Of a stretch of DNA of 64,000 nucleotides, positions 14,822-64,000 are shown in pieces (the stretch's first letter is position 1; each line of letters opens with the position of its first letter). The stretch is from contig JAVXUO010002326.1 in the NCBI GenBank assembly GCA_033065855.1, positions 1,054,001 to 1,118,000 on the forward strand, given 5' to 3'. The notes beneath the pieces were generated by a model. The model saw only the letters and a program-made list of their open reading frames with translations, did not search any database and had not been told where the DNA came from. The translations under genes were made by a program, and so were the position numbers. Origin of the DNA: Escallonia rubra. Taxonomy: Eukaryota > Streptophyta > Magnoliopsida > Escalloniales > Escalloniaceae.

Positions 14822-14829
14822 TAGAGGGG

Positions 14830-16107: not shown

Positions 16108-16114
16108 AGAGGGG

Positions 16115-16575: not shown

Positions 16576-17002
16576 TACATATTGTATTAAAAATAATCTT
16601 TTAGTCTACATTTCAAGTTGCAGATGAATTAGGAACGTCTTTCTTTTATTGAAATTTATTAAACCACATCATTGAGTGGCTAAGTTACCAAATAGTTTGT
16701 GATTATCTCACTTTGATGTGTATATTCAGCTAAGTTAATCATGAGCTCTAAATATCTCGTGATTTTGACATAATTATTCCTGCCATAAAGTAGTTTAAAT
16801 TAATAAATTCCTACCTCAGTAACTTAAAAATTTTGAGTTGGAACAAAGGAACGCCTTGCAAGCACAACTCACCATGTAGTAACTATATCATGCTCCATGT
16901 ATGGCAACGAACATGCACAACACGTACTTACTAATGAAGTAAGTCGTTGAGGCCAACGATCACAATTTGATGGCATAAGTCACAAACATCTTTTATTCGT
17001 GA

Positions 17003-24903: not shown

Positions 24904-26545
24904 CTAGGTCTGTGGGGAATCAGCTGCTGAATGCTTGAAGTATGCTGCCAAAAGAGTAGTCACAGGTTTGGAGTTTTCCATACCAAAGCACTGCAGTACT
25001 CGCTCAATGTACTTTTTCTGGGATAAGTACAAAATTCTTGCAGGTCCATCCATCTGAATATGAATCTCCATCTCTAATATCCTCTTTGTTGCACCTAAGT
25101 CTTTCATCTCAAATTCTCTTTTCAAATGTTCTTTCAAACCATTGATATCTGACATTGATGTCAACAATCAACATGTCATCAATATACAATAACAATTATC
25201 AATGAGAACCATCTGTGAACCTCTGGTGATAGATACAACTGTCATAGGCACTCTTTGTATAATCTCTATCTGTCATGAAAGTGTCGAACCACTTATACCA
25301 GTGACTTGGAGATTTCTTTAATCCATAAAAGGATATCTTCAACAAGCAAACATGATCTTTCTTATCCTGGATCACGAACCTCTCTGGCTGACGCATGAAT
25401 ATGTGATATTCTAACTCACCGTGTAAAAAATCTATCTTGACATCTAGTTGTTCTAACTCCAAGTCATACAGCGAAACCATAGTAAGCAACACTCTTATCG
25501 AAGTATATTTTATTGCAGGAAATTTTTTTTCATTATAATCAACACCTTCTCTCTGAGTAAAACCCTTAGCTACCAAGCTTGCTTTATATCTTGCATATTC
25601 CATTCCAGGAACTCCCTATTCTTCTTGTAGACCTATTTGCAACCTTTAATCTTTTGACCCATAGGCAATTTCACCAGTTTCCATGTTTGATTCTTATAAA
25701 GAGATTCCATATCCTCACTCATAGCAACTGTCCACTGCTGATTTCATGCTCTTGATGGCCTTTTTATATGTAACAGGCTCTTCAACCTCAATAGCCTCTG
25801 CCACACTAAGAGTATAAGCAACCATATCCACATCATACTTCTGAGGAGGTCAAAATTCTCTTCTCGATTTGTTTCTGGCAATGATATATGTTGTTCTTGA
25901 GGTACTTCATTTTTCTCGGTAGAATGAGAACCATCTTCCTCATCTGTAAGAATTATAGGTAAAGAGTCTAGAGCTTGAACCTTCAGCTCCACCTTCACCC
26001 TGACACTGTGGTCTTTCCCTGCATCAATCAACTCCTCATTCTTCAAAAGCATCGAAGACTCATCAAAGGTCACATCTCTGTTAATTAAGAACCCGAATGA
26101 CTTAGAATCGGGACACCATAACTGGTTCACTTTTACCCCACTTGCATAGCCTAAGAAAATGCACTTCTTTGCTGTCGGTTCAAGTTTACCATCATTAACA
26201 TGAGCACAAGCAAGACAACCAAATATCCTCAAATTTTCATAATTAGCATGCTTGTGAGACCAAACTTTTACAGGAGTCTTGCAATCAATTGCAACCGATG
26301 GAGACCTATTCACCAAATATGCAGACGTGTTAACAGCTTCTGCCCAAAATTCCTCCGATAACTTGGCATTTGAAAGCATACACCGAGCAGTCTCAATGAG
26401 AGTTCTATTCATCCGCTCTGGAACCCCATTCTGATGTGGCATTTTTCTAACACTGCAATGCATCACTATGCCTTCATTCTTGCAGAACTCAGTGAACTCA
26501 TTCAAACAGAATTCCATGCGATTGTCAGTCCTCAATGGGAGTTTT
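24904..26545 (-). mobile_element. Ty1/copia internal fragment (integrase and RT), no LTRs
   Basis: Read right to left, this fossil starts inside the integrase core (NGVPERMNRTLIETARCML, about 26370-26430), goes through its C-terminal part (GCLACAHV, FLGYA), then an RT start (KASLVAKGFTQREGVDYNE, about 25540-25595), LDVKIDFLHGEL and the later RT region (about 24904-25167). Gag, protease, the RNase H end and both LTRs are absent. It has several breaks. It resembles Tnt1-type (Tork) copia elements. Confidence 0.85.
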
Positions 26546-27101
26546 ATTCATCCAAACATGGTTGAGTCCTCAAACGAAAAACTCAAGCGGAGGGAAAATA
26601 CCGGTGGAAGGCACGTACGTCCCACTGCCTGAGCAAGCGAGCCAACCTCCAAAGGTGATGGCTCGATGACAACATCGGCCAATGACTCGACTTCCACATG
26701 CGGAGAATGACCCAATTCCAAAGAATGATCCGTTGGTAGTAACTGGGATATTGGAGGAGCGTGGCCCAAGGAAGGAGAGTGAGCCAATTTAGTATGAGCT
26801 AAGTCAGAGAGTATAGGTTCTTGAAGCCCAACACGGTTACTTGAAGAAAAGGATCCATATTGGTCCAATATTCCACAACCAGTGGAAATAAAGTTATGAA
26901 ATGAAATAGTATGCAGCGTATGGTCCTGTTTTGCGGTCAGTCCATTAGTATGTCCAATTAAAGTAGGCCCAGTAGTAGGAAGAACATTCTTCAGTCCATT
27001 AGTATGTCCAATTGAAGCCACGCGTGGTAGAACATTCTTCAAATTTTACGCGTCTAGCCCTAGCTTAAATTCTATCTACGTTTGATATAATAATGCAATT
27101 G
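26546..27101 (-). other. Unrecognised open stretch next to the copia fragment
   Basis: A 164-codon open frame (27042-26548) contains a near-duplicate 13-residue motif (IGHTNGLKNVLP, IGHTNGL). It is rich in Pro, Ser, His and Leu, with no known fold. The duplication at the DNA level (AGTCCATTAGTATGTCCAAT, twice, at about 26938 and 26993) shows a short tandem event. It may be part of an unknown retroelement or chance. There is no start context or splice evidence. Confidence 0.3.
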
Positions 27102-27220
27102 TAGCACGCACGATTAAGTCGAGCTGTGCTTTCACCTTTTAGTTTATTTCAATACAAAAGCTTCACTTCGTAAAATCGGTGAGGTTTTTGTATTTACACG
27201 TTTATCTTCCCACTATACTC
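27102..27220 (+). repeat. 119-bp repeat, second copy (identical to 3773-3891)
   Basis: This copy is identical to the sequence next to the copia LTR at 3773. It is preceded here by GATATAATAATGCAATTG and followed by GTCTTCAGTTTAG, neither of which matches the first copy. It therefore marks one true shared edge on the right (…CACTATACTC). Confidence 0.9.
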
Positions 27221-41769: not shown

Positions 41770-44700
41770 TCGTAATGCCTTCTATACAGGTTCTGATCAC
41801 ACATGATAAACTAGGTAACCCATCTTCACAGAGACATGCAACCTCTCGACGATGCTCCCTCGGGGTATTTTCCATCTGGGATAAAATTACGCATATCTTT
41901 GTACCATGGTTCCTTTGTCTCAACGTCACACATCGGCTCAACCATAAAGCAATAAGTTGGTCCGTCCCATTTTCCGATGATAAATGGTTCTACTTCTTAC
42001 CCTTGGGGTACCTCTGTCATCAACACGAGGGTTGCTAATGTATCAGTGCCGAGGAAGATACTGGAAATCTATGTCCTCAAACTTATCCACAATCTTCTCC
42101 AAATGAGCATGGTAAGCCTGTAATTGCTTATCTTGGATGGATGATTAGGGCTGAATCTCCGTATACTGTAACTTCTCTCATACCTAGGCTCAAGGCCATT
42201 TCCAAGCCAACGATGCGTGCTTCATATTCGGACGTATTGTTGGTACCATGCCATTTTAGTTTGATGGTTATGGAAGTATGGGCACCCCCTGGAGAGATCA
42301 GAAGTACTCCTACACCAAATCCTTTGTCGTTTGCGGCTTCACCAAAGTACAACTTCCATCTAGTCCCTACCACCATGACACAGACGTTCTTGTCTGGAAA
42401 GTTTTGCTTCCCATTCACTGACATCTTTTGTACGTCAATCTGCTAACATGTCAGCCTCAGCTTTTCATTTTTCTGGCTTCTGGTTGAATATGTGAAATCA
42501 AGTTCAAAAAGTAACAGGAGCCACTTAGCAGTTCGATTAGATAGGGTTGGTTTCTCAAACAGGTACTTCATCGAGTCCATCATAGCCAACAACTTGATAA
42601 GGTTAGCCAAGACGTAGTGTCGCAGTTTCTGTCTTACCATACTAGCGAGACACATGTCTTCTTTAAAGCATAATAGTTCACTTCTCCTTCAATCAACTCT
42701 TTGATACCATAGTAGACGGCTCTTTCTGTCAACGAGTTTTCTAGATGTTGGGCTAGCATTGCTCTAGCGGTTGTGTCGATTACAGTCAGGTAAAGCAACA
42801 GAGGGTTATCCGGTGGCACTAGAGGGGTTAATCAAAGGAGTATTTTATTTGCCATTATGTTGTCATGTTCCTATTTTCTTTCCTGAAAGACTGTGGCTAT
42901 CCTCATCCAAAACAATAGTCAAGCCAAATTTTCACTTGTCTTTCCTTCCAAAAGTCAGCCTCTCTTTCTGATTTTCTGGACTAATCGCCTAATCACCCCC
43001 CATGCTTTGGATCTTTACCCTTTTTCCCCTTCTTCAGTCAAAACTACACTGAAGAGTCTTCGCGCCAAGTGATAGCATTGGCATTAAGTTGGTCTCCTCA
43101 ATGATTATCCTCATTAGCTAGAAGAGTGACAAATTGATCAATTCGATGCTCATTAGAATGTAAAATCCTAATTGGATTTTCGTCAGCATCGAATTTCTCT
43201 TCAAACATTCGGGAGTCGAACCAGGATCATCGAATCCAGATGACTTTAGTCTCCTCTTCTATCTGAGGTCGATGATAGCCTTGAACCATACTTTGAGATG
43301 ATTTTTGGGAATCCTAGAATGTAAGTCCTAAACCTTCTTGCAAATGGGTCTCTTCTTTAGCCTTTTCGAGAAACATGATCTTTCTGCTGCTTGGAAAGTT
43401 CCAGTTTAGTTCTGCTCGCAATCTGCTCGGTAGTCAGAATTTTTTCCTGAATGCGGGACGACAACCAATTATTATAAGAATCCATCAGTACTGAGGGATC
43501 AGACGCTATGCCATTATATTCACTCCGGCATCAATGGGACGATGACGGCGTGACTGAGTCTCCGACCCTTTAGAAATGGTTGGAAGAAATGAGTTGTTGC
43601 AAAGAAACGAAATTGTTGTAAGACATTGGAGTGATTTGCTCATGACCAGATTGCCGAAGAATGCGACAAATGAAATAAAAAGATGAGAATCGCAGTCCTA
43701 TGAGGCACATAGAGAGGTATTCATCGGTCCGTAGAATAGGTCCATGAGTCCTCCACCAGTTGCAATTACAAAGGATATCTTTGAACTCCTTAGTACATAA
43801 AATCGAGTCCAACCATCAATACCCGAACAACCCTCGAAGAGCAAAGGTCTAGACCTAAATAAGTGAGGATGATACTTCACTTCAGTCGGTTCAGCTCTTA
43901 ATCTCATATGATCCAAGAACCACATATAGAGAAGTAAGGGACTACCTTTGAATTCAGCACTAAGGTCTTGGTGCACTTATAGCATTGATGGTCTCGGCAA
44001 CCTCTGCCAGAACCTTTCCCTAGAGCAATATTTGAGAAACGAGGTCCACTATACTCACATCAGCGATTCGCAGACCCATAATGGTGAGATATTTAGCAAT
44101 GTGTTAGAGGGGATTCCATTCTTTGGTTGAATTTCTATTCAATAGCTTGAAAATTGGCTCGCAAATCATTGGCAACTGAGATTTGAAACGACTAATATAC
44201 TGAATCCTTCTTAAAAATCTACAAATCTATTTCTCATTCTTTGGTGGGAGCATCTCCATTATGGCTTTGACCTTAGCTGCGTCTACATCTATGCCCGCTT
44301 ACTAACCAAGAACCCTAACAATTTACCGGCCATAACTCCAAATACACATTTATGGAGGTTGAGCCTCACGTTATATTGCTTCAATCTTTTGAAGTATTTC
44401 CTCAAAATTACACAATGATCCTCACTTCTTGGACTTAATAATCATGCCATCTACATATATCGCTACTTCTTTATGGATCATATCTTGGAAAACAGTAGTA
44501 GCGGCTTTTTGGTAGGTAGCTTCGTTGTTTTTCAACCTAGAAGGCATCATTGTATAGCAAAATGTCCCTAATATATATTGTGTTAAAAATAATATTTTAG
44601 TCTACATTTCAAGTTGCAGATGAATTAGGAACGTCTTTCTTTTATTGAAATTTATTAAACCACATCATAGAGTGGCTAAGTTACCAAATAGTTTGTGATG

Positions 44701-44999
44701 ATCTCACTTTGATGTGTATATTTCAGCTAAGTTAATCATGAGCTCTAAATATCTCGTGATTTTGACGTAATTATTCCTGCCATAAAGTAGTTTAAATTAA
44801 TAAATTCCTACTTCAGTAACTTAAAATTTTTGAGTTGGAACAAAGGAACGCCTTGCAAGCACAACTCACCATGTAGTAACTATATCATGCTCCATGTATG
44901 GCAACGAACATGTACAACACGTAGTTACTAATGAAGTAATTCGTTGAGGCCAACGATCACAATTTGATGGCATAAGTCACAAGCATCTTTTATTCGTGA
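41770..44999. repeat. Large direct repeat, 3.23 kb, second copy (first copy 13774-17002)
   Basis: This is the same composite as the first copy: integrase edge, the two RNase H regions (42128-42819), DUF7745-like segment (42828-44105), RT part (about 44113-44570) and 0.43 kb of non-coding DNA. Here the left edge is an abrupt join: the sequence to the left belongs to the LTR edge of the second Tat element. The right edge joins TTGGGCTTTGCTTG, different from the first copy. It is a fossil of LTR-element origin without its own LTRs. Confidence 0.9.
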
Positions 45000-45357
45000 C
45001 TTGGGCTTTGCTTGTTATATACTAGAAAATCTTGTGTTCCAATTAAACTGGAGTTTACAATTACGTACTTGACCTTTTGTTTTAGGTAAAGAACTTGCAC
45101 CATATAGTTACAATCTATATTTGACACAATAGCTTCATTCAAAAACTCAAGTACCATACAAGAAAACATGTTTGTAGTGACAGAATTTGGTTCCGTCACA
45201 AAAATTCCGTCACCTAACTAACCAATGTTAACTTCTAAAAACTAATGTAAATTTAGCAACCAAATAGTCCGTTGCTAGAAGTTTCAGCGACGAATGTATA
45301 ATTTTGATTTGAAAAATTCGTTTTTAGCTTTAGAGAAAAGACCTAATGTATAATCTA

Positions 45358-48451: not shown

Positions 48452-50090
48452 AAGTGTCGAATACGAATTTTGGAGTAAAAATGATTTTGGGCTGTAACAA
48501 TACAAAATACTCAATTTCTTGTATCTTTTTTATGCTTAGGAGTAAACTATGTTAAAATTTACGCATATATTTGAACGCTGTGATTTGGACAATCCAGTAC
48601 GGTATTGGTCTTTTTGCAAATTTAGATTCTACGAAGACCACGTAATTAGGTCGCATTCTTGAAATCTATTCGTTTAGTAGCACCAGATAACGTAATAATC
48701 TGAAGATTCTCCGATCAGTTGAAACCGGAAGCTATCAAACCGAAAGCTATCAACTCGGTAGAAAATAATTGATGGCTTGTCAATATGAAATGGGGTCCTA
48801 GGTGAACATTGTGGAAACGTTACTTTTATAATTTTTTGATGGTTTGTTACAAATAACTAATGGTTGGTATCGGCTTATCCCTAGAAATGTTAATCTTCCA
48901 TTTTATTGTAAGGTAATCTCTTAAATCTTAACAAGGAATAAAAATAACTGGTGGCCTTCGACAATTTATGCAATATCACAATAGTATAGTTGGTAAGTAA
49001 CTTTTCAAGTAAACTCGCAACTCGCGCACAAATAACGCCTAAGAAAGATCTCTTTCGCTGCATATGTGGTCGCAATAAAGACGTTTCTTCTACCGCACGT
49101 TCTACATACTAACTTTAGACAACACAGTTCTGGTTTAAGTTCCTTTTTCGCGTACTAATTTTTGAAGTTACAATTGTCACCTCAATCTTAATTGTCATGT
49201 TCGGCTAGAAACCAAAAAAACATTATTGCACGTAAGATCGAGTTCGTTATGACAATTTTAGAAACTTCGTAATGAATAATCCAGGTTTCGAACGACTTAT
49301 TTGTCGTACTCTACGCTCGGTGTTCTATTAATAAATACCTTCTTGAATATGTGATTCTAGTTGTATGAGGGATTGTTATGAGGGCTCTATTACATCATGA
49401 GCATGACGCTAGTCATCCTTGACAATATTTTGAAGGTCATTTTTCGTGGTGACCACGTCAATTTCCATGCTTATGGTCTAGTTCACAGCTTAAGCTTTAA
49501 GAGAACAAAATCATATCCATTTTTTAAGGGAAAAACCTTTATGAGCTCGTAAAGAGTTGATGCGCTTGCCGTAATATCACCTAAGGGAAAAAACTTTATG
49601 AGCTCGTAAAGAGTTCTAGATTGTTTTTTATTTGCTGAAAGAATTAAGAGAAAATCCTACCTTCAATTTTAGATCGCAAGAAACTGTAACTGTGGTCTTA
49701 AACACAATGTTTAGTTCTTCATATTGTAAGGATTCGCGAAAGAAGTTCAAGTAATGGTTTGAAATTAATTATGGCAAGTAGTCATGCATGAAAGCTAGTA
49801 ATGTGAAAACAAGTTCACAAATACGTGAATAATAAGAAGACAGAATCCACATTATATTGCGGTAATCCACATAAAGTTTTCAAAATCACATCTCCATTGC
49901 TACCTTTACTACCTACTCGAGACCACCTATTCTGATTTATATCAACTCCGTCCCCCACAACCAGGCATCTCTAACACCTATATATCTCGTCTATCATAAT
50001 TCATTTAGCCCATCATCTATAAGGACGTCCCAATCTACCAACTTCAATAACCACTTCAGTTATTAATTTACTCTCACATCATCTTTAGAA
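48452..50090. other. Upstream region of the MBD-like gene; matches 52.8-53.9 kb
   Basis: About 48990-50040 is similar along its length to about 52860-53800 (shared landmarks GCATATGTGG against CATATGTTGCC, TCGTGGTGACCACG at 49446 and 53262). So the gene and its flank form one unit about 3.8 kb long that is repeated. 48452-48990 shows nothing recognisable. Confidence 0.6.
49978..49985 (+). promoter_or_regulatory. TATA-like box of the MBD-like gene
   Basis: CTATATAT lies 106 bp upstream of the ATG at 50091. The corresponding position in the decayed copy at 60.8 kb has lost it. The assignment is by position and motif only. Confidence 0.45.
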
Positions 50091-52429
50091 ATGGCTTCAT
50101 CTGGTGAGAACAATTCCTCATACTTAACTAGGAACGAGAGTCAACTTAATGTTCCAAATCAACATTCAAGGATTCCCCTCCAAGGGTTTGAAAATGTAAG
50201 TGATCTTGGGTTGGCCTAGAGTTAATGTTGCATTATATATATTGTTGATACCTAAGAGTTTTTTAGATCTAATTCTACGTCGTTTTGTTCTTTTTATCAA
50301 TAAATGTAAAAAATACGTTATAGCCGCCATCACAAGAAACAAAAGGCGAAACCGAAGGCGTTGAGGTGGCAGATCCCATATCGCCGCCATCACAAGAAAC
50401 AAAAGGGGAAACCGAAGGCGTGAAGATGGTTGATCCCATATCCTACATGTTTCCTGAAAATTCGGACATTCAACCAATAATAACGGCTGAGGTAGGAATT
50501 TTCTCCTTTTAAGTTGTTCTCTTTTTTTTTGTGTGGCTAAACATCCTTTATATGATAACCCTAGCTCTAAGAGAGGTAAAAAAAATTAGGGTCAAAGAAC
50601 AGAACTTAAAGGAAACTCAATTAAGTTTTAGGCACAAAAAAGTAATAAAAGTAGTATGAAAACAAGTGATGAATATGATATATTGATGAACTAATGATTT
50701 GTAGCGATAGCATCCTTTTAAGAAGTGGGAAAAAAAAAATCAGCATCAATAACAAGAATGAAGACCTTGAATATATGTGTATCTGTGTAGGGTAGGGCAT
50801 GTGTGTGCGCGCGCGCGCAGGCACTTGAAATATGAATGTAAAACACTTGCATTCACTAATTGGTCTTAACACTACGATTTACACTATAGAATCTATCAAC
50901 ATTGGAGATATTGCCGTTCATGCCAAAGCGAGCCACAAGAGGATCATCAAAGATTCTCGATACTTCGGATGCGATAACAGTTCATCTAGAGCAGTGCTGC
51001 ATTGACTACATAAAAAGGTCGGATAAGGTAATTTCATCCCTCAACCTCTCCCTTGAAACTGTATATTAACTCCCTTTGTATTTAAAATGAAATATGTAGG
51101 ATAGCTTACCATTGTGATGTTTGACAAAATTTTGGATGTTGATACTTAGATTGTATTAGTGTGTTTTATGTTTAGTAGTTAATGCATGGTCACCTAACCT
51201 AGAAGTTAAAACTTGATAACGTAATCTAGAAACGATCCCGAGATGACTATATGTCTCGACGAACCAAGAATCAGAGCACTTTGACATGGAATGAACGACT
51301 AGAAGGATGGGCAATTCAGTTAAGACAACGTTCGAATGGAAGAATCGATAAGGTATGGAAGTTGGATCTCCTTTTTATGTTTTATTTCTTCTTAAAACTC
51401 ATAAATCTAGTACTGCAAAACTTAGTAAAATATTTTCTGCAGTTTTATCTCCACAAGAACTACTGTACACTTCGATCTTTGGTCGACGTTCAAAATTATA
51501 TCGTTTATGGTGTTCATCCGCGTAGACCACAACGTCCCGAGGAAGAAATCCCAAAAGGAGCCTCGTTGGTGAGTTATATTATCCATTAGTTGCTATTCAT
51601 TTTCTTTTTTTATGGTTTTTTCATTTTTGAACTTCAAGACAATGACTATTTAGACAACTAAAATACTTGTACTAACTTGTTTAATACCAAATTCAAATTA
51701 TAAAAAATGTAAAATTCAATCATATACAGCACTAAAAATGATGATAACTCTTCTAGGTTGCTTGAATACCATTTTCAACACCTTTATATGACAAAAAAAA
51801 AATGAGTTTCAGTCGTATATTTGCAAGTAGAATTTGAAAAGGATAGCAGACAATAAAATTCTAAAAACATGAACTGAAGATAGAGTAAATGGTAACTAAA
51901 CGGAGTTTAATGTGCAAGTATCGCGATGTCCTCTATTCACCTAGTACCTAGGCTTATAAAATATCATCAGTTAATCACATTTTAAGAATGTCAACATCGA
52001 AATGAAAAAGCCGTTCATCACTTTATTAAGGTACCAATCTAAACACACTTAAGAAAAAATCTGTGCAAATTTCAAGCTTCTTCAGTGCATAGCTTTAACA
52101 TTACAAGCAAAAGTTTACATGGTTTTGGTTGTACTGGCCAGCAGAGTCTTCAACCAATGACGGGATCAGCACAAGCAGGCTCATCAAAGAGAAAGATAAC
52201 TAATGAGCGTTCAGAAGCTAGTGGTACCTCCCCAGAGCAAGCTCCAAGCTGCCAATATGCAAGCAACAAGGAGTATGTCGAGGCATTTTTGGCCGCGGCA
52301 TATAATAACCTACTTAACCGCGATAACAACACGAAAGATAATTGTGTTGTTCCTTCAAAGACTTGCAATGAAGACATTAAAAGAACGATTAAACAACTCT
52401 TCACTATGGGAAATTCATATGTTCCGTAG
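50091..52429 (+). CDS. Methyl-CpG-binding-domain (MBD)-like protein, six exons
   Basis: The exons are 50091-50195, 50324-50491, 50890-51027, 51230-51352, 51443-51568 and 52142-52429 (35, 56, 46, 41, 42 and 95 codons, then TAG). All five junctions are phase 0 with GT/AG. The last acceptor could be 3 bp further right (52145). The MBD-like region spans exons 4-5: WNERLEGWAIQLRQRSNGRI then DKFYLHKNYCTLRSLVDVQN then YIVYGVHP. The pattern W...GW....R.R..G..DK.Y......RSL..V..Y is that of plant MBD proteins, which read DNA methylation or join chromatin complexes in the nucleus. The loop residues that contact methyl-C in binding members are poorly kept, so methyl binding is uncertain. Exon 2 holds a 20-residue tandem repeat (PPSQETKGETEGVEVADPIS, twice). 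Exon 6 is Ser/Lys-rich with a helix-prone end. This is the only copy in the window with all exons open. Neighbouring copies are decayed. Confidence 0.7.
50324..50443 (+). repeat. 60-bp in-frame tandem duplication in exon 2 of the MBD-like gene
   Basis: Two 60-bp units, each starting CCGCCATCACAAGAAACAAA, encode 20-residue repeats that differ at three codons in the second half. The intron side ends exactly at the first unit. Being a multiple of three, it keeps the frame. Confidence 0.9.
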
Positions 52430-53329
52430 TACAAGATGTTGTAGGAATTGCGGTACACATATTATGAAGTGATTTATGATATTGTTTTCTATTCAAAAAC
52501 TTGAGTTTGAATTGCTAGTGTTATCAAAATTTGTTACGAATAAAATCAAACTTCTTTTGATCCTTTTGAGATTTCAGTGGTGTTGCGTACTTTATGCTAA
52601 CATTCGACATTGCGATAAAGTTGATGAATAGGCTTACTTAGACGATCGCTTTCCATGCTCTACTTTTAGATAAGCTAATAACGAAGACGTCATCGATCAT
52701 TTTTTGTCAATGTCCGGCACAAAATTTTTATCTATTATCTAAAATAACTTGCTAAAAAGTTATAACGGAGTCCTTATTGAAGATCATCAAAATTTTATTT
52801 ATGGTTTGCAGTAAGTATGTACATTTGCATTGATTGCGGCAGATTCCATTTTTTTTAAGATGATCAATTATGATGTGCTCATGTTGACAAATCACTTTGT
52901 TAGTAAACTCCAGCACGAGTAACGTGCATGAAAAAATCCCTTTTATGCTACATATGTTGCCACATGCAAAGCTAGAGTTGCGTTAACAACACATTTTATG
53001 GACTAATTTTAGAATTCTACTTGTGGTTTAAGGTTTTCTTTTCTAGTGAATTGCGTGACTACCATGTCATCCATGCCAGTTGTTAATGTCGAGCAAGGAA
53101 TTTGTGAAGTATTAAACAGTAAATCTCTATGCACTCTTTTTATAAACTTTATTTTGATTAAGAAGGTTTCACACGGATTTTGTGTCCTACACCATACTAA
53201 TTATAATAAATACAATTTTGAGTACGTACTTGTGGTTGTACTAGGGCTTGAGGGCATTGTTTCGTGGTGACCACGACATGGCATGAAATTTTTATAAACT
53301 CGAACTCAAGTTGATTCGTATGCACGAAA
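52430..53329. other. 3' flank of the MBD-like gene and start of the next unit
   Basis: No gene was seen. From about 52850 on, the sequence resembles 48990-49500, so the boundary between repeated units is near 52850. A 74-codon open frame (53046-53270) within it looks like chance. Confidence 0.45.
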
Positions 53330-54660
53330 GTAGCAATTCTTCATTAAATACCCAAAAAGGATCAAGTTTAGCTGTATACATAACTTTCCATTCGTCAAGG
53401 CATTGTCCTATTTCCTTTTTCTTTTTCTTTTTTTTGAGGTAAAAACGAAACTCCTAGTGTATTGACTGAAAATCATTGGGAAAAGTACCGCTGGTCTTAA
53501 ACTGAATGTTTAGTTCATTAATATTGTTATAGTTCATTAAAGATACCTGAAGACAATTCATAAACTGCAAAAGAACCCAAGTCGCAGTGAGAAAACAATT
53601 ATGGCACATAAGCATGCACAGAAGTTAGAAACGTGGAAATTGGTAAGCGTATATGGTTACTAACGAAGAAAGACACGGTTTAACAACAGTTTGAACATTT
53701 GATAAATGCTACAATATGTTTCAAAATCACAACCACATTGTTGCCTAACCGATGAAAATTATTGAAGCTATATTAACTTGCATGCTAAGTGGCTTATGTG
53801 TCACTGGCAATCATGATTTATAAATTCAAGGTTCGATTAAACGATGTGCTCGTAAAGCAGTGACACTAGCATCATAAACAAGTAAGGATGATTTTCCACT
53901 CAACAAGCATTGTCCTATTTTTTTTTTTTTTTTTGTGGGAAGAGAAAAAGAGAAACTCCTTATATTAACTGTCAAATATTTAAAAAAAGATACCTCGGAA
54001 AGTTTAATTTATCATTTTTTGGTATTATTCATAAGAAATACCTCAAGGACATTTGTAAAGTAAAAAAATTATTTTAAGTGTGGTATAGGTAACTATATAT
54101 CAATAATAAAGAAAGACAGAACTCAACGATAGATTATACCCTCAAAGTCTTGAGTTCGAATCCTCATACCGACGGGCCACATATAAATTACAGTTCTGAT
54201 TATTAAAAAAAAATAGATTATACCATTCCACAAATAATAAATTTTCAAAATCACATTTCGATTACAACCAAGTCTTTTAAAGGGAACACAATATAGGTAA
54301 ATGGTACAACGTATAGGAACTCATAGCCGTCAACTTTGACACCCCCATGTTGTTATTAATTACTCTTGGGTATGCATAAAGTTATTGTTTATGTTATGAC
54401 TTATACTGAATCCAATTCTATGTTCTTTTTATCACTTTTCGTCATCAAAGTTTTGTTGATAAAATATTATAATCGTCAACATAAGAAAATAAAAGAGGCT
54501 ATGGAATGGAAGGTGTTCTGGTCATAGATCTCATATCCTACAAGCAAATATATTAGGGAGATGTAGAACAAGCAATGCATGTGTTACAATCATTCACAAT
54601 TGTTTTGCAGTGCTAGCATCATTTTAAGATGTGTCGAGAACATTTCACCATAAATTCGGA
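53330..54660 (+). pseudogene. Decayed MBD-like unit: two upstream subrepeats and exon-2-like remnant
   Basis: Two successive versions of the roughly 0.5 kb upstream subrepeat are seen (about 53385-53810 and 53811-54340; each has GTCCTATTT, a T-rich tract, GAAACTCCTxxTAT, a GCAGTGAG or similar block and TTTCAAAATCACA). Then exon 1 is missing. Intron-1-like sequence (54400-54440) follows, with a decayed exon 2 (about 54465-54545, ending GATCTCATATCCTAC) and the start of intron 2 (to 54660). The copy is cut there by a CACTA end. It cannot encode a protein. Confidence 0.6.
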
Positions 54661-55318
54661 GAGTATACTACAAGAAAAATAACAATTAGCGACGGAAAAA
54701 ATCCGTCGCTAAATATGCTAATTCCGTCAGTAAATCCGTTAGCGACGAAAATTCCGTCGCTAAAGTTTCATCGCTTAAACCCTCGTCGCTAAAGGTTTTA
54801 TCGACGGAATTAGTGCGTCCATCAGTAATGTCTTTGTTATTAGCGGCGGAATTGGTCACACTTTAGCGACGGAATTTCCGTCACTAGAAATATTTTTTAG
54901 TTTTCAAAAAATTAATTTTTTAAAAATAAATAATTGAAATATAAATATATTTTTATGCATTATTAAAAAAATTATCATTAGCAACGGAAATTTCTTCGCC
55001 AATTCCATCGCCAAGTTTAATACAGGACAAATTTTTCGTCGCTAATTCTGTCGCAAAAACCATATTTAGAAGCTAAATAAATTTTTCCATTGCAAAAACC
55101 ATATTTAAGAGCTAAATATTTTTTTCCGTCGTTAATTCTGTCGCAAAAAAAAATGCATATTAAGGAATTTTTCCGTCGCAAAAATCATATTTAGGAGCTA
55201 AAAATTTTGAAAATAGAAATTATTAAATATGCATAATAGATTATACTATTCTTAATTGATGCCACAACTTGTGACAATAATAATCCAACATTTGACAGTG
55301 AACTGAAGATAACAAATA

Positions 55319-56324
55319 GGGCAAATTATATCTATGTCCCTGAGGTTAGGGTATAATTACGTTCAAGGACATTAAGTTTTAAAATGTAACATATCGTGAC
55401 CAAACACTTTTTAAATGTATCAGACATGTCCATCCATCAGGGTTCCGTCCAAAAAGTGTACTTTTTGTATGATGTCATAAATATATATTTTTAAAATGAC
55501 GATACTACCCCTTGTACTGTATATACTGAATATTTTTAAAAAATTTAAATTAAGATTTCATGCCTTAATTTAAAGTCACAATGTATCACCTTGCAAATTT
55601 GCAAATTAGGATTTTGTTGAAACCCTAATTTGCAAATTAGGGTTTTCTTGAAACCCTAATTTGGAAATTTTGATTTCTTCTCTCTCCCATTGCCGGCGAC
55701 CAATCTCCTGCCGGCGTCGCCTCCATCTCCGGCGACGTCGCCCTTCTCCTTCCATCTGTTCTCTCTCCCCGCACGTCGCCCTCTCCGCGGCAGCCCTTTC
55801 CCTCGCCCCACACCGGCAGCGCCTTCTCTCGCCCCATGACGACAGCACCTTTCCTCGCCCCATGACGGCATCCCCTTCCCTCCGCCGACCTAGATCTAAA
55901 ATAAAGAGACGAGAGAGACGACCTTGATCTGAACATGGACATGGTCGCCGCCATCCCCTTCCCTCCGCCAGCCCCTTCCCAACAACCTAGATCTGAAATG
56001 ACGAGACATGAGAGACGACAATATCTGAGGCCCGCGACCTGCCGAACATGCACATGGTCACCGAGCACCTCCGCCGCTGCTGCACCGTCTTCGACGCCCA
56101 CTGTGAAATGAAGAGACGAGAGATGGAGAGAGAGAGGAAAGAGAGAAAAAAAAGATGAAGAAAATGGAATTTTAATTTTATGTTTGGGCAATTCAGTCTT
56201 TTTGTCAAAACCGTTACGTATTTTTATATTCTGTTTGGTCAACGGACATAAGTGTAATTTGTCCAAACTATTATCCTTGCCTGTAATTATACCCTAACCT
56301 CAGGGACAGAGATGTAATTTGCCC
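55319..56324. mobile_element. Mutator-like (MULE) non-autonomous transposon, 1006 bp, with GC-rich cargo
   Basis: The terminal inverted repeats begin GGGCAAATTATATCTATGTC on the left and match the right end (…CAGGGACAGAGATG, TAATTTGCCC). A perfect 9-bp target duplication TAACAAATA flanks it (55310-55318 and 56325-56333). About 55690-56100 is GC-rich, with long open frames on both strands, unlike the AT-rich ends. This is the look of a Pack-MULE cargo, but the source gene was not recognised. The TIR is related to that of the MULE at 45358. Confidence 0.95.
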
Positions 56325-56462
56325 TAACAAATATTCAGCATTTGTTGAATACCACTAAAAGTTAACAATTGAGTTAGTGCATCTAAATCAACCAGTTGCT
56401 TAGTTACCAAAATGAACAAATATCCCAACAAATGTAACGTCAGATCTGGTCACATAAAGCAA

Positions 56463-56531
56463 TCATCCACCAAGCTTATCGAATGTTTCATCATTGTCAT
56501 TCTCAGTAGTATCAGTCGCGGTAACTTTGGC
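56463..56531 (-). pseudogene. Short terminal exon in the second CACTA element
   Basis: After an acceptor (TTTTGTTACAG on the minus strand), the frame reads AKVTATDTTENDNDETFDKL then GG and a stop. It is a small acidic exon like the one at 47639-47722. The call is by analogy. Confidence 0.35.
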
Positions 56532-56654
56532 CTGTAACAAAACAATTAAAGGCATGTTAAAGGATGTGCATCAATGTACTTGCATAACCAAGCCTAACCA
56601 TGAATTCAACCTAAAATCTGTGAGTCAAACATATTGGCAGTTGATATGGTGCTT

Positions 56655-56985
56655 ACATTAAGCCATTGGGCAAAGTGCGTTGGAAAAGAGACTGGGTGAT
56701 CTATATGCAAGGTTCTCCAATGTAAGTAGAGGCAATGTGATTAGGGATTTTGAACAGCTCAGACAAGTAACTACTGTGGGAGAATATTATAATCAATTTG
56801 AAGAATTGAGGGCCCAGGTGGTGGAGGAGTTCAGAATATTGGATGAGAGCTACTTTTTGACGAGCTTTGTGGAAGATTGAGGCTTGGAATCAGAAGTCTT
56901 GTAGAGCAATTTGAGGTTATTACACCGACTAAGGCTATCCACGTGGCAAGGAAAGATAAGATTGCAATTAACAACCTGATTAGCA
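56655..56985 (+). mobile_element. Scrap of a Ty3/gypsy gag
   Basis: The plus strand shows a gag-type stretch: VGEYYNQFEELRAQV and ESYFLTSFVE, followed by a LGIRSLVEQFEVITPTKAI part. This matches the plant retrotransposon gag family. No LTR, primer site or pol is attached. It is a fossil fragment with at least one break. It lies directly upstream of a LINE that is not related to it. Confidence 0.65.
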
Positions 56986-57044
56986 GAGACTTGTACTCAC
57001 TACACCTTCAATCCAAAACATGTGACCACCAACTCCAAACTGTG

Positions 57045-60000
57045 AACATACCTACATACCAAAAACCCATCTCATGGAACAAAGGTCTCGGCACAAACTC
57101 AATTGGCTCCTCGATTGTGGGGAAGCACTCTGGGCACAGAAATCATCCATCCGATGGTTACAGCTGGGGGATAGGAATACTCACTTTTTTCATATATCCA
57201 CAATTACCAGAAGACAACGTAATCGTATTTCTTACTTGGAAGATGATCGGGGAATCGGTCTTCAATCACATACGGACATCGCGAACAGTCTTCGGCAACA
57301 CTTCAAAGGGATTTTTTGCCCTCTATCTCACCCCTCCTCTACTCCTTGGATGTCGAGATCTACCGAAGGACTGACTAAATCACTCACAGCGGACCACATT
57401 GAATGGCTATCCAAACCTTTCACTGCACAGGAGGTTAAACAAGCCCTCTTTGATATTAAACATCTTAAAGCCCCAGGCCCTGACGGCATCCCAGCCATCG
57501 TTTACCAACAGTGTTGGGGTTTTTTGGAAACTCCGATCACCTCTGCAGTCCTCTCTTTTCTCCGATCGGGCTTTCTTCTGAAAGCAGTAAACAAATCTTT
57601 TTTGGTCCTTATTCCAAAGAAACCCAACCCTAAAGTAGCAGCTGACTTTAGACCAATTTCTCTGTGCAATACTATTTACAAAATCATAGGCAAAACTTTA
57701 GCCAATAGAATTAAACCGTTATTGCCTTACCTCATCTCGGAACACCAGAATGCCTTCATTGGAGGCCGTCACATTACAGATAACATCTTTATTGCTCAAG
57801 AGCTAGCCAACAAGATCCGAACAACTCGTACCGGTAAAGCAGTGTATGGGGCCATTAAGATGGATATGAGTAAGGCCTACGACAGAGTTAACTGGGCATA
57901 TCTGGAAACTATCCTCAAGCAATCCAAGTTCCCAGGATTTTTTATCAAGTTAATCATGGCCTGTGTAACTACTGTCTCCTATGAAATTCTACTCAATGGC
58001 TCCCCCATTGAAAGATTCCAACCCACTTGTGGACTTCGTCAGGGAGACCCCCTTTCCCCTTATCTGTTCCTCCTTTGCGCCGAGATGCTTTCATCATCCC
58101 TCCAATTGGCACATGATTCGGGCCATGTCCCGGGTATCAAATTGGGAAGACACTGCCCACCGCTCAACCACTTACTTTTTGCGGATGATATTATGATTTT
58201 CACCAAATTGAACCAAGTCTCTTGCAGTCGCCTGAAACATCTTCTCCGACAATACTGCGAAGTTTCGAGACAACAGATCAATCTTCAAAAATCCTCTCTC
58301 ACCATTAGCCCCAACGCTACCATTGAAGAAGGCAACAATATCAAGGGATGGCTGGGTTTTCAAACCTCGGATTCCTTTGGACAATACCTTGGCACAACAC
58401 TTGATATCATTACTCACAAAAAGCTATATTTTCATACCATCATTGACAAAGTTAAAGCTAGATGTGCAGGATGGAAAGGCAGTCTTCTAAACAAAGCAGG
58501 ACGAGCAACGCTCATATCTTCGGTGCTCACTTCCCTACTCCTATATCACATGCAAATCTGCCTTTTTCCTAGGTACGTTACAAAAAAGCTAAACCAGATC
58601 CTTGGCAGATTCTTTTGGTCCGGTACGGAACTTAAACAAGGTTTACATTGGATCAACTGACCCGCCCTTTGCACTCCAAAAAATGCCGGTGGATTAGGTT
58701 TCAAGGAAACAGGCCTTTTCAACAGATCTCTTCTAGCTAAAACTAGTTGGAGGTTGTGGACGGATCCTCAGTCGCTAATGGCCAAACAATTATTGGGGAA
58801 ATATTGCCATAACTATAACTATAACTTCCTCCTTAGCCCAGATCAGGGCAATTTCTCTTCGGGATGGCGTAGTATCCTCGCCGGTAGAAAATTGCTCAAA
58901 GCCGGACTCAGATGGCAAGTTGGTACAGGGACTCAAATACATATCTGGCAAGATGACTGGATTCCCCATTTTGACGGTAAACCAAGTCTTCCGGATCGAG
59001 GATCTTCTACGCCTCCAGACAAAGTCAGTGACCTTATTACCAATGGCTCATGGGATAAACGCACACTCAAGCAATGGTTCCCTACTTCCCTAATTCCGAA
59101 AATACTGGCTATACATCTCTCTCCGAACCAACTATCTGACCAGTTAGTTTGGAAACATTCATCCAAGGGTACCTTCTTCGTAGCCTCTGCATATGAACAG
59201 GCCCTTTCTACGCATACAACCAACAACCAAAGCGTAGTTTTGGGGCAGATCAGTGGGGAAAATCCTAAAATTTGGCCGATCCTGTGGAAAATCCTAAATT
59301 TCTCCTTTGGCAAGCCCTCTGGGACAGACTTCCCCTTCAAAGCAAACTTTACAGCTTCAAGATATCTGACACGCCGCTGTGCCCTTTATGCCATGAAGAA
59401 CCAGAGACACTAAATCACCTCCTCCTCTCCTGCCCGTTGGTTCGCCCAATTTGGTTTGGTGGCCCTACCGGCTTCAGATCGGATAACATTTCTAGACCCT
59501 TCCGAGAATGGCTCATCGCTTGGCTTATAAAAACTAAAAATAAAAGCAAGCATAAATCACAAACTCTCTCTATAATAACTACTATCTGGTGCATATGGAT
59601 TCATAGAAATCACTGCATTTTTCGATTCAAGGATTTCAATCCCCTCCTTGTTATTACCGACATCACTACCTTACGACACAAAATTCTTCGCTACCAACTT
59701 AATGGTCCTCGCCACCCTCCGTCATCCCCACGCCTTCACATTTTTCATCAAAACCTCTTGACCTGTACCTGCTCACACTTGAACCCTATATCTGTGTTTA
59801 TGTCTGTAACCTTTGATAAAGTTCGCCAAAGATTAGGTATCGGACTCACTTGCAAAACTCATCAGTCTTTTCGTTGTGGCTCAGCAGCCTTCTCTTCTCA
59901 TGCTTCGGACTGGCTTACGGCCCAAGCCAAGAGCCTACTACTCATGACAACCTGGGCTATTTCGAAACACATTACTCACTTGCATCTAATGACTAACTCT

Positions 60001-60408
60001 AGTTTTCTTTTCTCACAGCTAACCAACAGTGATGATGTACCTGACACTGCGACCCCTATTATGTATGATTTTTGTCAAGTAGTTTCTTCCTTGCACCTTT
60101 TCAGTATTGCCATGACAGAACAGAGGCACTTAAAGGAGGCCAGATCACTAACAGCTTTTGCTTGTCATGCCCGCATTCCCGTATACCAGGATTGGGTTCA
60201 TGATTTATGTTGTAACTGATCTGCAGTTCCTTTATTTTGCAGTTGTTTTTTGGACGCCTGTATTCTGTCCCCGTGTTATATATCTCTGTACTTTCTGGCC
60301 TTTATTTACATGACATCCATAGTCATGGTCTATTATGTATAGCCAATTCTGGCTAATCTGTACTCCTAAACTTTATTTCAATGCAATTCTCATCTTATAA
60401 AAAAAAAA
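57045..60408 (+). mobile_element. L1-type LINE, 5' truncated, with RT, zf-RVT and degenerate RNase H-like end
   Basis: ORF2 begins after the endonuclease, at RSRHKLNWLLDCGEALWAQK, a common plant L1 linker. The RT spans about 57440-58300: LIPKKPNPKVAADFRPISLC, MDMSKAYDRVNW, GLRQGDPLSPYLF and the catalytic FADD at about 58175. The frame is open for 528 codons (57074-58660), where TGA interrupts it. The same frame goes on to about 59290, followed by a shift into the frame 59272-60219. That part holds the zinc motif CPLCHEEPETLNHLLLSC and a weak RNase H-like tail. A 3' UTR ends in a short A run (60400-60408). No target duplication was found. It is not functional (one stop, one frameshift, no endonuclease), but the long RT frame points to modest age. 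Confidence 0.9.
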
Positions 60409-60599
60409 CGACCATGAAATCATTTTAGGCCCTACCCACTGCAACCATGAAATCAACATGTGAAATTTGACCTTTCACAATGACCACCCTCGCTGTCACA
60501 ATCATGGGACTGTTAGCACCTAAAATATGTATCAAGTAGAATTTCAAGTCTTGTCCCTGGGGTCAAACCACTAAGACACATGTGGTCACCAAAAATACA

Positions 60600-61265
60600 T
60601 GAAGTGTTACTATATACTTGGCAGTAATCCACGTATATTTTTATAATCACATCTGAGTTACTATATACTTGGCAGTAGCTATTGTGTTATCATTAACCAC
60701 CTCGCCCCACCCTACCCCCCACTCCCGCCCCTCTCCCTAACCTATCGCCTATCGGTATCCATTATAGCCCATTATCTACAACTTAAATAGGCCCCTTCAG
60801 TTGTTATATTATTACTCTCATATCATCTCTATAAATGGTTTTATTCTGCGAGAACAATTCCTCGCCCTTAACAAGGTGGGAGAGTCAACCCAATGTTCCA
60901 AGTGAACATTCAAGGATTCTCCTCCAAGGACTTGAAATGTAAGTGATCTTGGGTAGGCCTAAAGTGGATTTCGCATTACACTATTAAATGTCTAAGAAGT
61001 ATTCAATTCTAGATAGGACTAGGATCCTCTGATGCACAGTAATTTTGTTGTAACTAAAAGTGTCGCTAAATGCATTTTAGCGACGACGAAAGATTGTCAG
61101 TACAGTTTTTAACAACAGCGACAAAAGATTTTTAGTGACAATCAATCTTTTGTCACTAAAACTATTACAACATCTATGATGAGTCCAGCAGATATAAGAT
61201 CATTATCCTTCTAGGTCTAATTCTACATTTATCTGTTCCTTTTATCAACAGATTTTAATTCATTA
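60600..61265 (+). pseudogene. Decayed MBD-like copy keeping exon 1
   Basis: 60640-60830 matches the promoter side of the gene at 50091. 60835-60945 matches exon 1: GAGAACAATTCCTCGCCCTT, GAGAGTCAACCCAATGTTCC and AACATTCAAGGATTCTCCTC, then a kept donor AAATGTAAGTGATCTTGGGT. The equivalent of the start is ATGGTTTTATTCTG, and a TGA (60905-60907) closes the frame early. Intron 1 goes on to 61010, is interrupted by a small MITE-like insertion, and resumes at about 61214 to 61260. No exon 2 follows. Confidence 0.65.
61012..61212. mobile_element. Small MITE-like insertion in intron 1 of the decayed MBD-like copy
   Basis: Compared with intron 1 at 50.2 kb, about 200 bp are extra here. Their halves are loosely inverted: TTGTTGTAACTAAAAGTG on the left and, from the right, GTTGTAATAGTTTTAGTGAC. 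They carry AGCGAC and TTTTGTCACTAA subterminal motifs like the CACTA elements nearby. The family and target site are not settled. Confidence 0.4.
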
Positions 61266-61860
61266 ATTTTGCTATCGTGTATGAGAGATACCTCGAGTGA
61301 GTTCATGAAATTTTGACAATAATTTATGGTTTAATGTGAAAACAATTACGGCAGATAAACAAGTACAGAAGTTGGCAGGACGAAAACGTACAAGCATAAA
61401 TGGAAATAACGAAGAAAGACATGATTTGACTTTAAAATATAGCATCCCACAATTGGGTAAGTTTTCAAAATCGCAACTCAATTACTGCCTAACCTTATAA
61501 GGGGAACACAATATATGGACACTCTTAAAACTCTAATAAATTTCATGCTAAAATTGCTTTAATGCCTCGTCTCCCATTGCCTATGCTGATTTATAACCTC
61601 AAAGTCAGACTGAATCATGTGCCTGTAAAGCAGTGATTCTCACGACTTACTAACTAATAAGGATCAACTTCAGCCGCATTGAGATATTGTCCTAGTTTTC
61701 TTTTTCCTTTTTCTTTTTCTAACAGAAAAGAAAAAGAGAAGCTTTAAGTATTAACTGGAAACCATTATGCAGAAGTACCTCTGGTCTTGAAGAGAATTTT
61801 AATTCATCATTTTATTCATAAGAGATACGTGAAAGAAATTAATGACATAGAAAAAGATTT
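61266..61860. repeat. Upstream subrepeats of the MBD-like family
   Basis: Two partial copies (about 61290-61590 and 61591-61860) of the same roughly 0.5 kb upstream subrepeat are joined head to tail. Landmarks are TTTTCAAAATCGCAACTCAA, CTGATTTATAA, TGTAAAGCAGTGA, ATTGTCCTAGTTTT and AAAGAGAAGCTTTAAGTATT. No coding part. Confidence 0.6.
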
Positions 61861-61863
61861 TAA

Positions 61864-63331
61864 GAGCCCGTTTGGGATTGATTAAAAAAATCAGATTCGG
61901 CTTAAATCTTAATTAGTTTTCAAAATCTGATTTAATTAGAATCAGTTTACTGTTTGGCAAAAGTAATTGTAAACTATATTAAGATCAGTTTGGATAAAAA
62001 GTACTTAAATCAGTTTCACTATGACAAAATGACCATAGAAGACACTCAATAAACAATTTTATAATATTCAAACAACGTTAACATAACTTTTATTCTTAAG
62101 TAACTATAATGCCTAAATAAATTATTAAAACAATTATTTTCACGCACTTACAAAAGTTGTTACTTTTTATTTTAAATTAAAACACAAACAATCTCATGTT
62201 GTTGCTTATAGTACGATAACATCCCCAAATTAAAAATAAAGTTTATCTTAAGCAAAAAAAAAAGATTATCTAGCGGTAGGAAAAGAGTTTAGCAATAAAA
62301 GAAGAGATAAACTCCAGAAACTATCTATGATAATTAATTAAGGGGTATGAGAGGTTTTTTGTGAAAAACTCCAGAAACTATCTATGGTAAATTAGAAGGT
62401 CAAACCTGATTATGTAAAAAAATTATTATTTCATAATCCTCACTTTTGATCATAATCCTCACTTTTGAGGATTATGAATTAAATCAGATTTCCTAAGAGA
62501 AGAGATAAACTCCAGAAACTGTTTGTTATTGATTATGAAAAGCAGATTCCAGCTTAAATCTGAATCAGTTTTCAAAATCAGATTTAATCTACTTTAAACA
62601 GAATCAGTTTGTTGTTTGGCAAAATAATCTGTAAACTAGTTTAAAGTTACAAAAAGTGTTTGGATAGAAGGTGATTAAATCAATTTTGATATGACAAAAT
62701 GACCATAAAGGACAGTATATAAATAAAGTTTTTAATATCCATTTAGTGAAGTAATGTTAACATAACTTTCAATTGAAAATAACTACAATATACGAAAAAA
62801 TTATCGAAGAAGCTATTTTCAACCATTTACAAAAATTGTTACTCCTTATTCTGAATTAAAAATACCAACAATCTCGCATTAGTGCTTATAGTACGATAAC
62901 TTCCCCAAATTATAAATAAAGTCTATCTTAAAAGTCACACCCAATAATTAGTTGAAAGAGTATGAAATGTCTTTTTGTGAAAAACATGGGGATAGGATGG
63001 TAAATTAAAAGGTGAAACCTGATTATGGAAAAAGTGATTATTTTATAATCCTCACTTTTCAGGATTATGGATTTAATCAATTTTTAGCCAGATTAAATCT
63101 CATAATCTTTTTTGCCAAACACTCGCACACCTAATTTAATCTATATTAAATCAGGTTTGACCATCCCATAATCAATCACAAACACCCTCTAAATCTCTTA
63201 ATCTCTTTTGCCAAACACCCACAAACCTGATTTAAACCTGATTTAATCTAGATTAAATCAGGTTTGACCATCCCATAATCAATCCCATTAAATCAGGTTT
63301 GATCATCCCATAATCAATCACAAACACCCTC
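61864..63331. mobile_element. Tourist-like (PIF/Harbinger) MITE, two joined copies, 1468 bp
   Basis: The outer ends are GAGCCCGTTTGGGATTGATT and, reverse-complemented, GAGGGTGTTTGTGATTGATT, flanked by TAA (61861-61863 and 63332-63334). TWA target sites and such TIRs fit Tourist elements. Inside, the same body occurs twice: 61885-62240 resembles 62520-62930 (CAGCTTAAATCTGAATCAGT type, then TATGACAAAATGACCATA). So it is a tandem or nested dimer. The paralogous unit at 3985 has the unbroken sequence TTTTAAGTGGCAGTGAG, which is the empty site with a single TAA. Confidence 0.85.
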
Positions 63332-64000
63332 TAAGTGGCAGTGAGAAGATAATTCTCGTGAATGAGCATGCATAGGAGTTGGTAGCAAGAAAATAGGTAA
63401 AGCATTTCCATAAGTGAAAGTTTGCAAAAACATAACTCAATCACGACACATATAAATGCCTTGTGTGCTACGACTTATCCTGATTTATAAGTATAAAGTC
63501 GGATTAAGTGATGTGCTCATAAACTAGTGATACTTGCCACATAATAAATTTTTTTGTGGAAAAAGAAAAGGAGAAACAATTCCCGAGAATGTTTAATTCA
63601 TCGTTTCTTGTATCATTCCTGAGAGATGCCTCCATCAAATTGAAAATGATTTAAGTAGTAGTGGGAACACAATTGCATCGGAGTAGCACGCAGAGAAGTT
63701 CGTAGAGTTAAAATAGGTGAATAATGAAGAAAGAAAAAGGTCAAAAACAAATTTCACAAATGCTAAGTTTTCACAATCACAACTTGATTACTGTCTGATC
63801 TTATTACAGGAATAGAATGAATGAAAACTGGTAAACTCTGTTAACTTCCATGCTAAAATTGCTTCAAAACCTTGTTTCTGCCTATCTTGATTTATGCCAC
63901 AACCCACCCCACCCTCCCTAGCCCATTTATCATATAGGAACTCCTCCTATTTGCCAACTTTGATACCACCCTTTGGTTATTAATTTACTCTTGGGTAGGC
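63332..64000. repeat. Further upstream subrepeats of the MBD-like family, cut by the window edge
   Basis: 63332-63480 completes the subrepeat split by the MITE. A second one (about 63481-63990) follows, with AAAGTCGGATTAAGTGATGT, GGAAAAAGAAAAGGAGAAAC, TTTTCACAATCACAACTTG and the promoter-side phrase CCCTTTGGTTATTAATTTAC. The last bases, TCTTGGGTAGGC, show the exon-1-deleted join, as at 4310 and 54370. Confidence 0.6.

Follow-up and report, generated by a model that had tools for sequence, protein, structure and literature searches.

An apparently old cluster of diverged MBD-like genes in Escallonia rubra, with two probably coding copies

Pieces of one MBD-like gene recur along the window analysed here, a stretch of 64,000 nucleotides of Escallonia rubra contig C1881, and raise the questions of whether any copy still codes for a protein, whether that protein belongs to the MBD family, and how the copies came about. 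The reading that we consider likely is that of a small cluster of old standing, made up of diverged plant MBD-like genes and extending over about 240 kb, in which two copies, A and B, are probably coding and the other copies are remnants. Positions 874001-1138000 of the contig were read directly, and the rest of it was covered by a whole-genome search.

Gene A lies at 50091-52429 of the window, on the forward strand like all window features given below; its six exons join into an uninterrupted 315-residue reading, and the predicted junctions are all GT-AG and phase 0. Paralogue B lies on this contig too, 214 kb upstream (C1881:889779-892145); it is likewise open in all six exons, and its five introns are predicted to be GT-AG and phase 0. 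At the protein level, exon 1 of A (50091-50195, 35 codons) is 71% identical to its counterpart in B; exon 2 (50324-50491, 56 codons) contains about 60 bp that are tandemly duplicated in frame, a duplication absent in B (50319-50382 versus 50379-50442, 89%); and exon 3 (50890-51027, 46 codons) is 75% identical to B over 44 residues. The MBD-like domain is divided between exon 4 (51230-51352, 41 codons), which holds its first half with the W, the first arginine finger, and the Asp, and exon 5 (51443-51568, 42 codons), which holds the second half with FY and the second arginine finger in LRS. Exon 6 (52142-52429, 95 codons and the stop), for which 52145 is an equally good alternative start, shows 51% identity to B over 88 columns.

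The similarity of A and B continues into their flanks. The 5' flank of A (49449-50090) is 66-70% identical to C1881:889141-889775 on the B side and, some 110 bp ahead of the ATG, contains a TATA-like CCTATATATCTC that B retains; all four of its whole-genome matches are on the contig of the window and none on other contigs. The 3' flank (52430-53200) is piecewise common to B and to a further copy, C, recognized by its frameshifted exon 6 at C1881:879379-879668. The repeat unit was placed at 49.0-52.85 kb in the preliminary description, but the similarity to B covers 49449 to about 53200 of the window instead. The description of one open six-exon copy among decayed ones is correct within the window, but A is not single, since B is a second open copy outside it.

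A and B have open readings, and their frames have been maintained. The per-exon length differences between them (0, 63, 0, 3, 0, and 6 nt) are each a multiple of three; 34 of the 45 intron indels are not. Indels per 100 aligned bases amount to 0.68 in exons versus 3.34 in introns (alignment scores 1/-1/-4/-1), and the exon rate is between one-fifth and one-third of that in introns; under three scorings, 2, 16, and 6 exon gaps have lengths other than multiples of three, and the per-exon sums are multiples of three. Neutral mutation of the A coding sequence at 0.13 per site produced a mean of 4.9 stops and left 0.8% of 1000 runs stop-free; no stops occur in A or B. Both are thus probably still protein-coding. 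However, it is conceivable, if unlikely, that A and B have become pseudogenes or are close to it, coding until recently and drifting now, which would account for an omega near 1 and for the many broken neighbours. Indeed, the overall omega for A versus B, 0.875, does not depart significantly from 1 (LRT p 0.51), their exon identity of 79-82% at the nucleotide level is little above the 74-78% of introns, and all other copies found are broken; a recent loss of constraint is possible for the pair because, with neutral mutation at 0.05 substitutions per site, 11% of runs kept a stop-free frame. Such drift is harder to reconcile with two copies that have neither a stop nor a net frameshift, that have intact splice-site dinucleotides, and whose exons are so much poorer in indels than their introns.

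Under the preferred reading, in which A and B are probably coding, the protein itself evolves with little visible restraint. By parts, omega is 1.32 for exons 4-5 (p 0.53), 0.87 for exons 1-3 (p 0.67), and 0.70 for exon 6 (p 0.26). Since omega is not different from 1, nothing points positively to purifying selection acting on the protein of A and B, and because amino acids diverge about as fast as silent sites, relaxed or diversifying selection is indicated rather than strong conservation.

The MBD-like region assigned to exons 4-5 in the preliminary description is backed by both profile comparison and intron position. A distant relative, D (locus L050), was found on another contig at C3140:277300-280300, with 33% identity over exons 4-5. 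The possibility left in that description, that no profile of the MBD family would hit, is borne out for one model and not for another: with the limit set at E 10, Pfam PF01429 (MBD) matched none of A, B, and D, in a scan whose filters drop most matches above E about 0.1, and a small profile built here does match. The Pfam MBD controls from this genome, L013 and L010, pass, and a whole-genome search with the Pfam MBD model identified 10 places, eight of them above cut-off and none on C1881 or C3140. An NCBIfam scan of A found no MBD. The A+B+D profile, compared by hhalign with a five-sequence MBD profile of hand-chosen members (AtMBD5, AtMBD6, human MBD2, and two MBDs of this genome), had a probability of 96.3 and a score of 44.8, with at most 20.1 in 300 column shuffles; a four-sequence MBD profile scored 40.3 versus at most 22.1 for shuffles and 7.5 when reversed, and single members gave 80-88%. 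No MBD was found among solved structures, either by sequence search with exons 4-5 of A or with the A+B profile, for which one unrelated chain appeared at E 1.6. AlphaFold2 modelling of the open frame 51230-51586, read through intron 4, yielded one long helix (pTM 0.39), a model of no use for judging the three-stranded sheet and helix expected of an MBD. A weak match on C1195 (E 1.4) was the second in its search.

We regard it as improbable that exons 4-5 encode some other small fold whose likeness to MBD is accidental. The silence of the Pfam MBD model would agree with such a fold, as would the sole Pfam hint near the region, DUF5352, which was obtained for A (E 0.0028, below its cut-off) and not for B or D; but the profile-profile score is twice the best of the 300 shuffles, the predicted intron site and phase are identical to those of a canonical MBD gene of this genome, and the W, the first Arg, the Asp, and the second Arg, that is, both arginine fingers included, stand in register in A, B, and D. 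By eye, D resembles A and B in its exon 3/4, 4/5, and 5/6 splits, all in phase 0, and differs in an extra exon 7 and a different C-terminal part. The exon layout is therefore kept within this genome in both paralogue B and D; a second copy of D was looked for and not found. As A, B, and D share the domain intron and are all missed by a Pfam-type search, counts of plant MBD genes made in that way may be too low.

All five places in the window where the gene was initially seen to recur match parts of unit A or paralogue B on the forward strand, the strongest match in the self-comparison having E 8.7e-46. Some of them match the unit directly over 32-86 bp only, with E values of roughly 1e-4 to 1e-6 when the search was confined to each place; their link to the unit is firmer through other pieces, which are mutually about 63-80% identical. 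The decayed unit at 3960-4837 comprises 5' flank, an intron 1-to-exon 2 remnant, and an intron 1 piece (4789-4837); within 3960-4536 the direct match to the 5' flank is 32 bp, and 4264-4490 matches 54329-54544, a stretch that in turn resembles B from intron 1 into exon 2. The decayed next unit after A (53349-54652) consists of 3' flank, 5' flank, and remnants of intron 1-exon 2 (54395-54544) and intron 2 (54567-54652), and includes a dispersed short repeat. A third unit (60622-61258) retains 5' flank, an open exon 1 (about 60835-60942), and an intron 1 split by about 200 bp; in these parts 60600-61265 is 81-83% identical to the unit over 207-228 columns. Two decayed 5' flank pieces follow, one at 61254-61864 with direct matches of 32 and 86 columns and the other at 63332-64000 with 73 columns; the latter extends past the window to C1881:1118234 by match to other pieces and is succeeded by an exon 5-intron 5 relic at C1881:1118708-1118969. 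Further flank pieces lie on C1881 near 881, 886, 894, and 900 kb, those near 886 kb being partly inverted.

That the unit is a transposon or a transposon-borne gene, its copies being insertions and not tandem duplicates, is very improbable and was set aside, for although the repeated pieces have transposons around them, another contig is 82% identical to 53287-53756, and the flank pieces near 886 kb include inverted ones, the 5' flank has no match on any other contig, exon matches too are confined to C1881, the window pieces are all on one strand, and 3' flank followed by the 5' flank of the next unit is seen in four places. The proposed burst of MBD-like genes is not supported: identities between units are mostly 63-87% (differences of about 13-37%), so the cluster is old and its duplications staggered, and this divergence speaks against a recent burst. 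The involvement of transposons was supported, transposon-like sequence being found between units. Judged from the sequences, this appears to be an old birth-and-death cluster rather than a burst; the cluster would have arisen by tandem duplication and later been fragmented by deletions and by insertions, including those of transposons. The family label is presumably PTHR34067, under which a literature search was without result. No cluster of such kind was found in the accessible portions of general papers on the MBD family, including PMC8811898 and PMC9125323.

Transcribed and spliced as predicted, A and B would most likely encode a small nuclear protein with flexible ends, whose middle portion of about 45 residues, encoded partly in exon 4 and partly in exon 5, may adopt an MBD fold contacting DNA. 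Some animal chromatin proteins have been argued to evolve under conflict with transposons. Here, a locus-restricted family resembling methylation readers, open yet diversifying in the manner of an arms race against transposons or the repeats of heterochromatin, seems rather doubtful; the idea draws on the highest point estimate of omega, that of the putatively DNA-contacting exons 4-5, which is not significant, and on the repeated breakage of the cluster by transposons. A pair that has kept its frames while its amino acids change roughly as fast as its silent sites is a handy test case for whether plant chromatin readers are in conflict with transposons.

The arginine fingers and the Asp of methyl-CpG recognition are named here after PMC8811898. 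AtMBD5 and AtMBD6 have both fingers and the Asp in common with A and B, in a GW/DW...R...DKFY...RS..(D/E)V register, at about 32% identity over 41 columns; unlike those proteins, A and B have no Pfam MBD match. The site of AtMBD6 Y104 is occupied by Phe instead of Tyr in A, B, and D, as it also is in AtMBD5, where, according to PMC8811898, this is taken to lower affinity. The L1 loop, from the first arginine finger to the Asp, has five residues in A and B versus nine in AtMBD6; PMC8811898 describes residues in this loop as missing also from all the other AtMBDs except AtMBD5 and AtMBD8. Given the change of Tyr to Phe and a loop four residues shorter than in AtMBD6, any binding of methylated CpG by A and B is probably weak or changed. 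The canonical MBD gene L013 of the same genome (C1791) has a similarly short L1 loop and a predicted phase-0 intron at the same codon of the domain, after (V/I)DK and before (F/Y)Y; in contrast to A and B, its spliced product passes Pfam MBD with 46 bits. Overall, the genes of this cluster would represent a diverged variant of the known MBD family.

The six-exon MBD-like gene A is read on the forward strand of the window, which covers C1881:1054001-1118000, with exons at 50091-50195, 50324-50491, 50890-51027, 51230-51352, 51443-51568, and 52142-52429; joined as predicted, they read as 315 codons closed by a stop, and each of the five junctions is GT-AG in phase 0. Within exon 2, about 60 bp are duplicated in tandem and in frame (89% in self-comparison), and a TATA-like sequence, CCTATATATCTC, found about 110 bp upstream of the ATG, is retained in the paralogue B. 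The latter, 214 kb upstream on the same contig, C1881 (C1881:889779-892145), has six exons as in A, 297 codons uninterrupted by a stop, and five predicted phase-0 GT-AG introns. Intron 4 of A (51353-51442) is 90 bp long and open in frame, so that its retention would insert 30 residues into the domain; the counterpart in B contains stops. In whole-genome searches (566 Mb, 3222 contigs; E up to 1), the proteins of A and B each had 15 matches, those of A to itself counted, all of them on C1881; only the best candidates were scored, and therefore very diverged copies may escape. A further copy, C (C1881:879379-879668), is an exon 6 spread over two frames, for which no other exon was found among the scored candidates. 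It sits in 1.9 kb comprising intron 5, exon 6, and the 3' flank, 85% identical to B.

A and B differ at approximately 18-21% of exon positions and 22-26% of intron positions. With the scoring 1/-1/-4/-1, the 885 aligned exon bases contain six gaps, of which two are not multiples of three and both belong to the 63-nt length difference of exon 2, whereas 34 of the 45 gaps in 1347 intron bases are not multiples of three. The length differences in exons 1-6 are 0, 63, 0, 3, 0, and 6 nt. Of the exon gaps placed under two other scorings, 16 of 21 and 6 of 10 are not multiples of three, yet the non-triplet gaps sum to multiples of three in each exon, and the exon gap rate is still about one third of the intron rate. 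When neutral mutation of the coding sequence was simulated (1000 runs), 0.8% of runs were stop-free at 0.13 per site, half the observed divergence, 1.8% at 0.10, and 11% at 0.05. The gap pattern and these simulations suggest that A and B were probably held open through much of their separate history; the constraint might have been lost recently. Substitution rates were estimated as dN 0.234 and dS 0.324 by NG86, 0.220 and 0.312 by LWL85, and 0.259 and 0.244 by YN00. The maximum-likelihood omega, fitted without the first 60 nt of A exon 2, is 0.875, and omega 1 is not rejected (p 0.51); by part, it is 0.87 in exons 1-3 (p 0.67), 1.32 in exons 4-5 (p 0.53), and 0.70 in exon 6 (p 0.26), the tests being low-powered for a single pair of 294 codons. 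The odd feature of this pair is that the frames are maintained despite an omega near 1.

The preliminary description listed repeats of the unit (gene A with its flanks) at 3960-4536, 53330-54660, 60600-61265, 61266-61860, and 63332-64000. All five were confirmed, some matching the unit directly over 32-86 columns only and otherwise via one another. A 3' flank followed by another unit's 5' flank occurs after C (to 881.2 kb of C1881), after B (893.2-894.6 kb), at 900.1-900.8 kb, and after A (53.35-54.4 kb of the window), and this recurring order looks like an old tandem array. The units at 53.3-54.65 and 4.0-4.5 kb retain intron 1 and an eroded exon 2, exon 1 is still open in the 60.6 kb unit, and the 63.3 kb unit extends beyond the window end, with an exon 5-intron 5 relic farther on (C1881:1118708-1118969). 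The units are mostly only 63-87% identical to one another, which argues against the burst of MBD-like genes proposed earlier. No match to the A 5' flank was found on other contigs in a genome search that skipped very common words. As judged from sequence, the cluster is old and confined to this locus, with diverged MBD-like genes, two copies of which are probably coding. Positions 53287-53756 of the 53.3 kb block are 82% identical to C1389:1110144-1110580, closer than to the local units.

Between the 54.65 kb and 60.6 kb units lies a LINE-type element (57026-60219) with RVT_1 and zf-RVT domains in two frames and a stop at 58660. At the unit end, near 54.67 kb, the sequence resembles the terminus of a CACTA element. 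A dispersed short repeat at 54140-54213 (34 of 45 matches listed, the best 40 of 157 candidates scored) includes GTTCGAATCC, presumably a B-box motif like that of a tRNA-derived SINE. The retroelements of the window are of plant type; Copia-type gag and retroviral SH3-like pieces lie on the reverse strand at 1862-2440 and 25744-26547. Segments 13774-17006 and 41770-45004 form a 3.2-kb direct repeat with 96.6% identity and a spacing of 28 kb; they may be long terminal repeats or copies of a duplicated element, and inspection of their ends established no clear terminal motif. A perfect 119-bp repeat joins 3773-3891 and 27102-27220, its first copy adjoining the 4.0 kb flank piece.

The proposed MBD assignment stood in profile-profile comparison but not in the Pfam search. 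PF01429 has no match in the proteins of A, B, or D, a distant relative on contig C3140, and these are absent from its ten places in the genome (eight over the cut-off), while two genes taken from this genome as controls scored 46 and 48 bits. The Pfam scan gave a weak match of DUF5352 to A (E 0.0028, below the cut-off) and none to B and D. When A, B, and D were combined into one profile, it matched a small, hand-picked profile of four sequences (AtMBD5, AtMBD6, human MBD2, and L010, an MBD gene of this genome) at 95.4% with score 40.3, compared with at most 22.1 in 300 column shuffles and 7.5 for the reversed profile; with a fifth sequence, the canonical gene L013, the values rose to 96.3% and 44.8 (300 shuffles, at most 20.1). 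Intron 4 interrupts the domain between DK and FY in phase 0, and the predicted intron of L013 (donor gtgctt, acceptor ttgcag) falls in phase 0 after VDK and before YY. In L012 and L014, two other MBD-matching loci, the match starts at the same place, after cag, and upstream exons were not found. D is split at this domain site too, and the common intron site may be taken as an independent sign of MBD relationship. Traced from a weak match (E 0.43), D shows by eye, in the 3 kb examined (C3140:277300-280300), exon 3-, 4-, 5-, and 6-like stretches in the order of A with phase-0 junctions; the exon 5-like stretch, FYRHLKTGTLFRSFAEVKRFIKY, ends in a GTGAGT donor as in A and B. D is 33% identical to A in exons 4-5, and a search with it returned D itself (two exons) and B at E 0.24.

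The MBD genes of this genome are similar to Arabidopsis MBD5 and MBD6, which together with the plant-type retroelements points to a flowering plant. According to the AtMBD6 report (PMC8811898), R92 and R115 lie in two arginine-finger motifs, D102 and Y104 are further key residues, and the L1 loop is flexible; apart from AtMBD5 and AtMBD8, the remaining MBDs of Arabidopsis likewise have some of this loop's residues missing. Set against these residues, A, B, and D have both arginines and the aspartate in register. The loop from the first arginine to the aspartate, nine residues long in AtMBD6, has only five in A and B, and Y104 is replaced by phenylalanine in all three. Because of this phenylalanine and the short L1 loop, methyl-DNA binding by these proteins would likely be weak or altered; the same phenylalanine occupies the Y104 position in AtMBD5.
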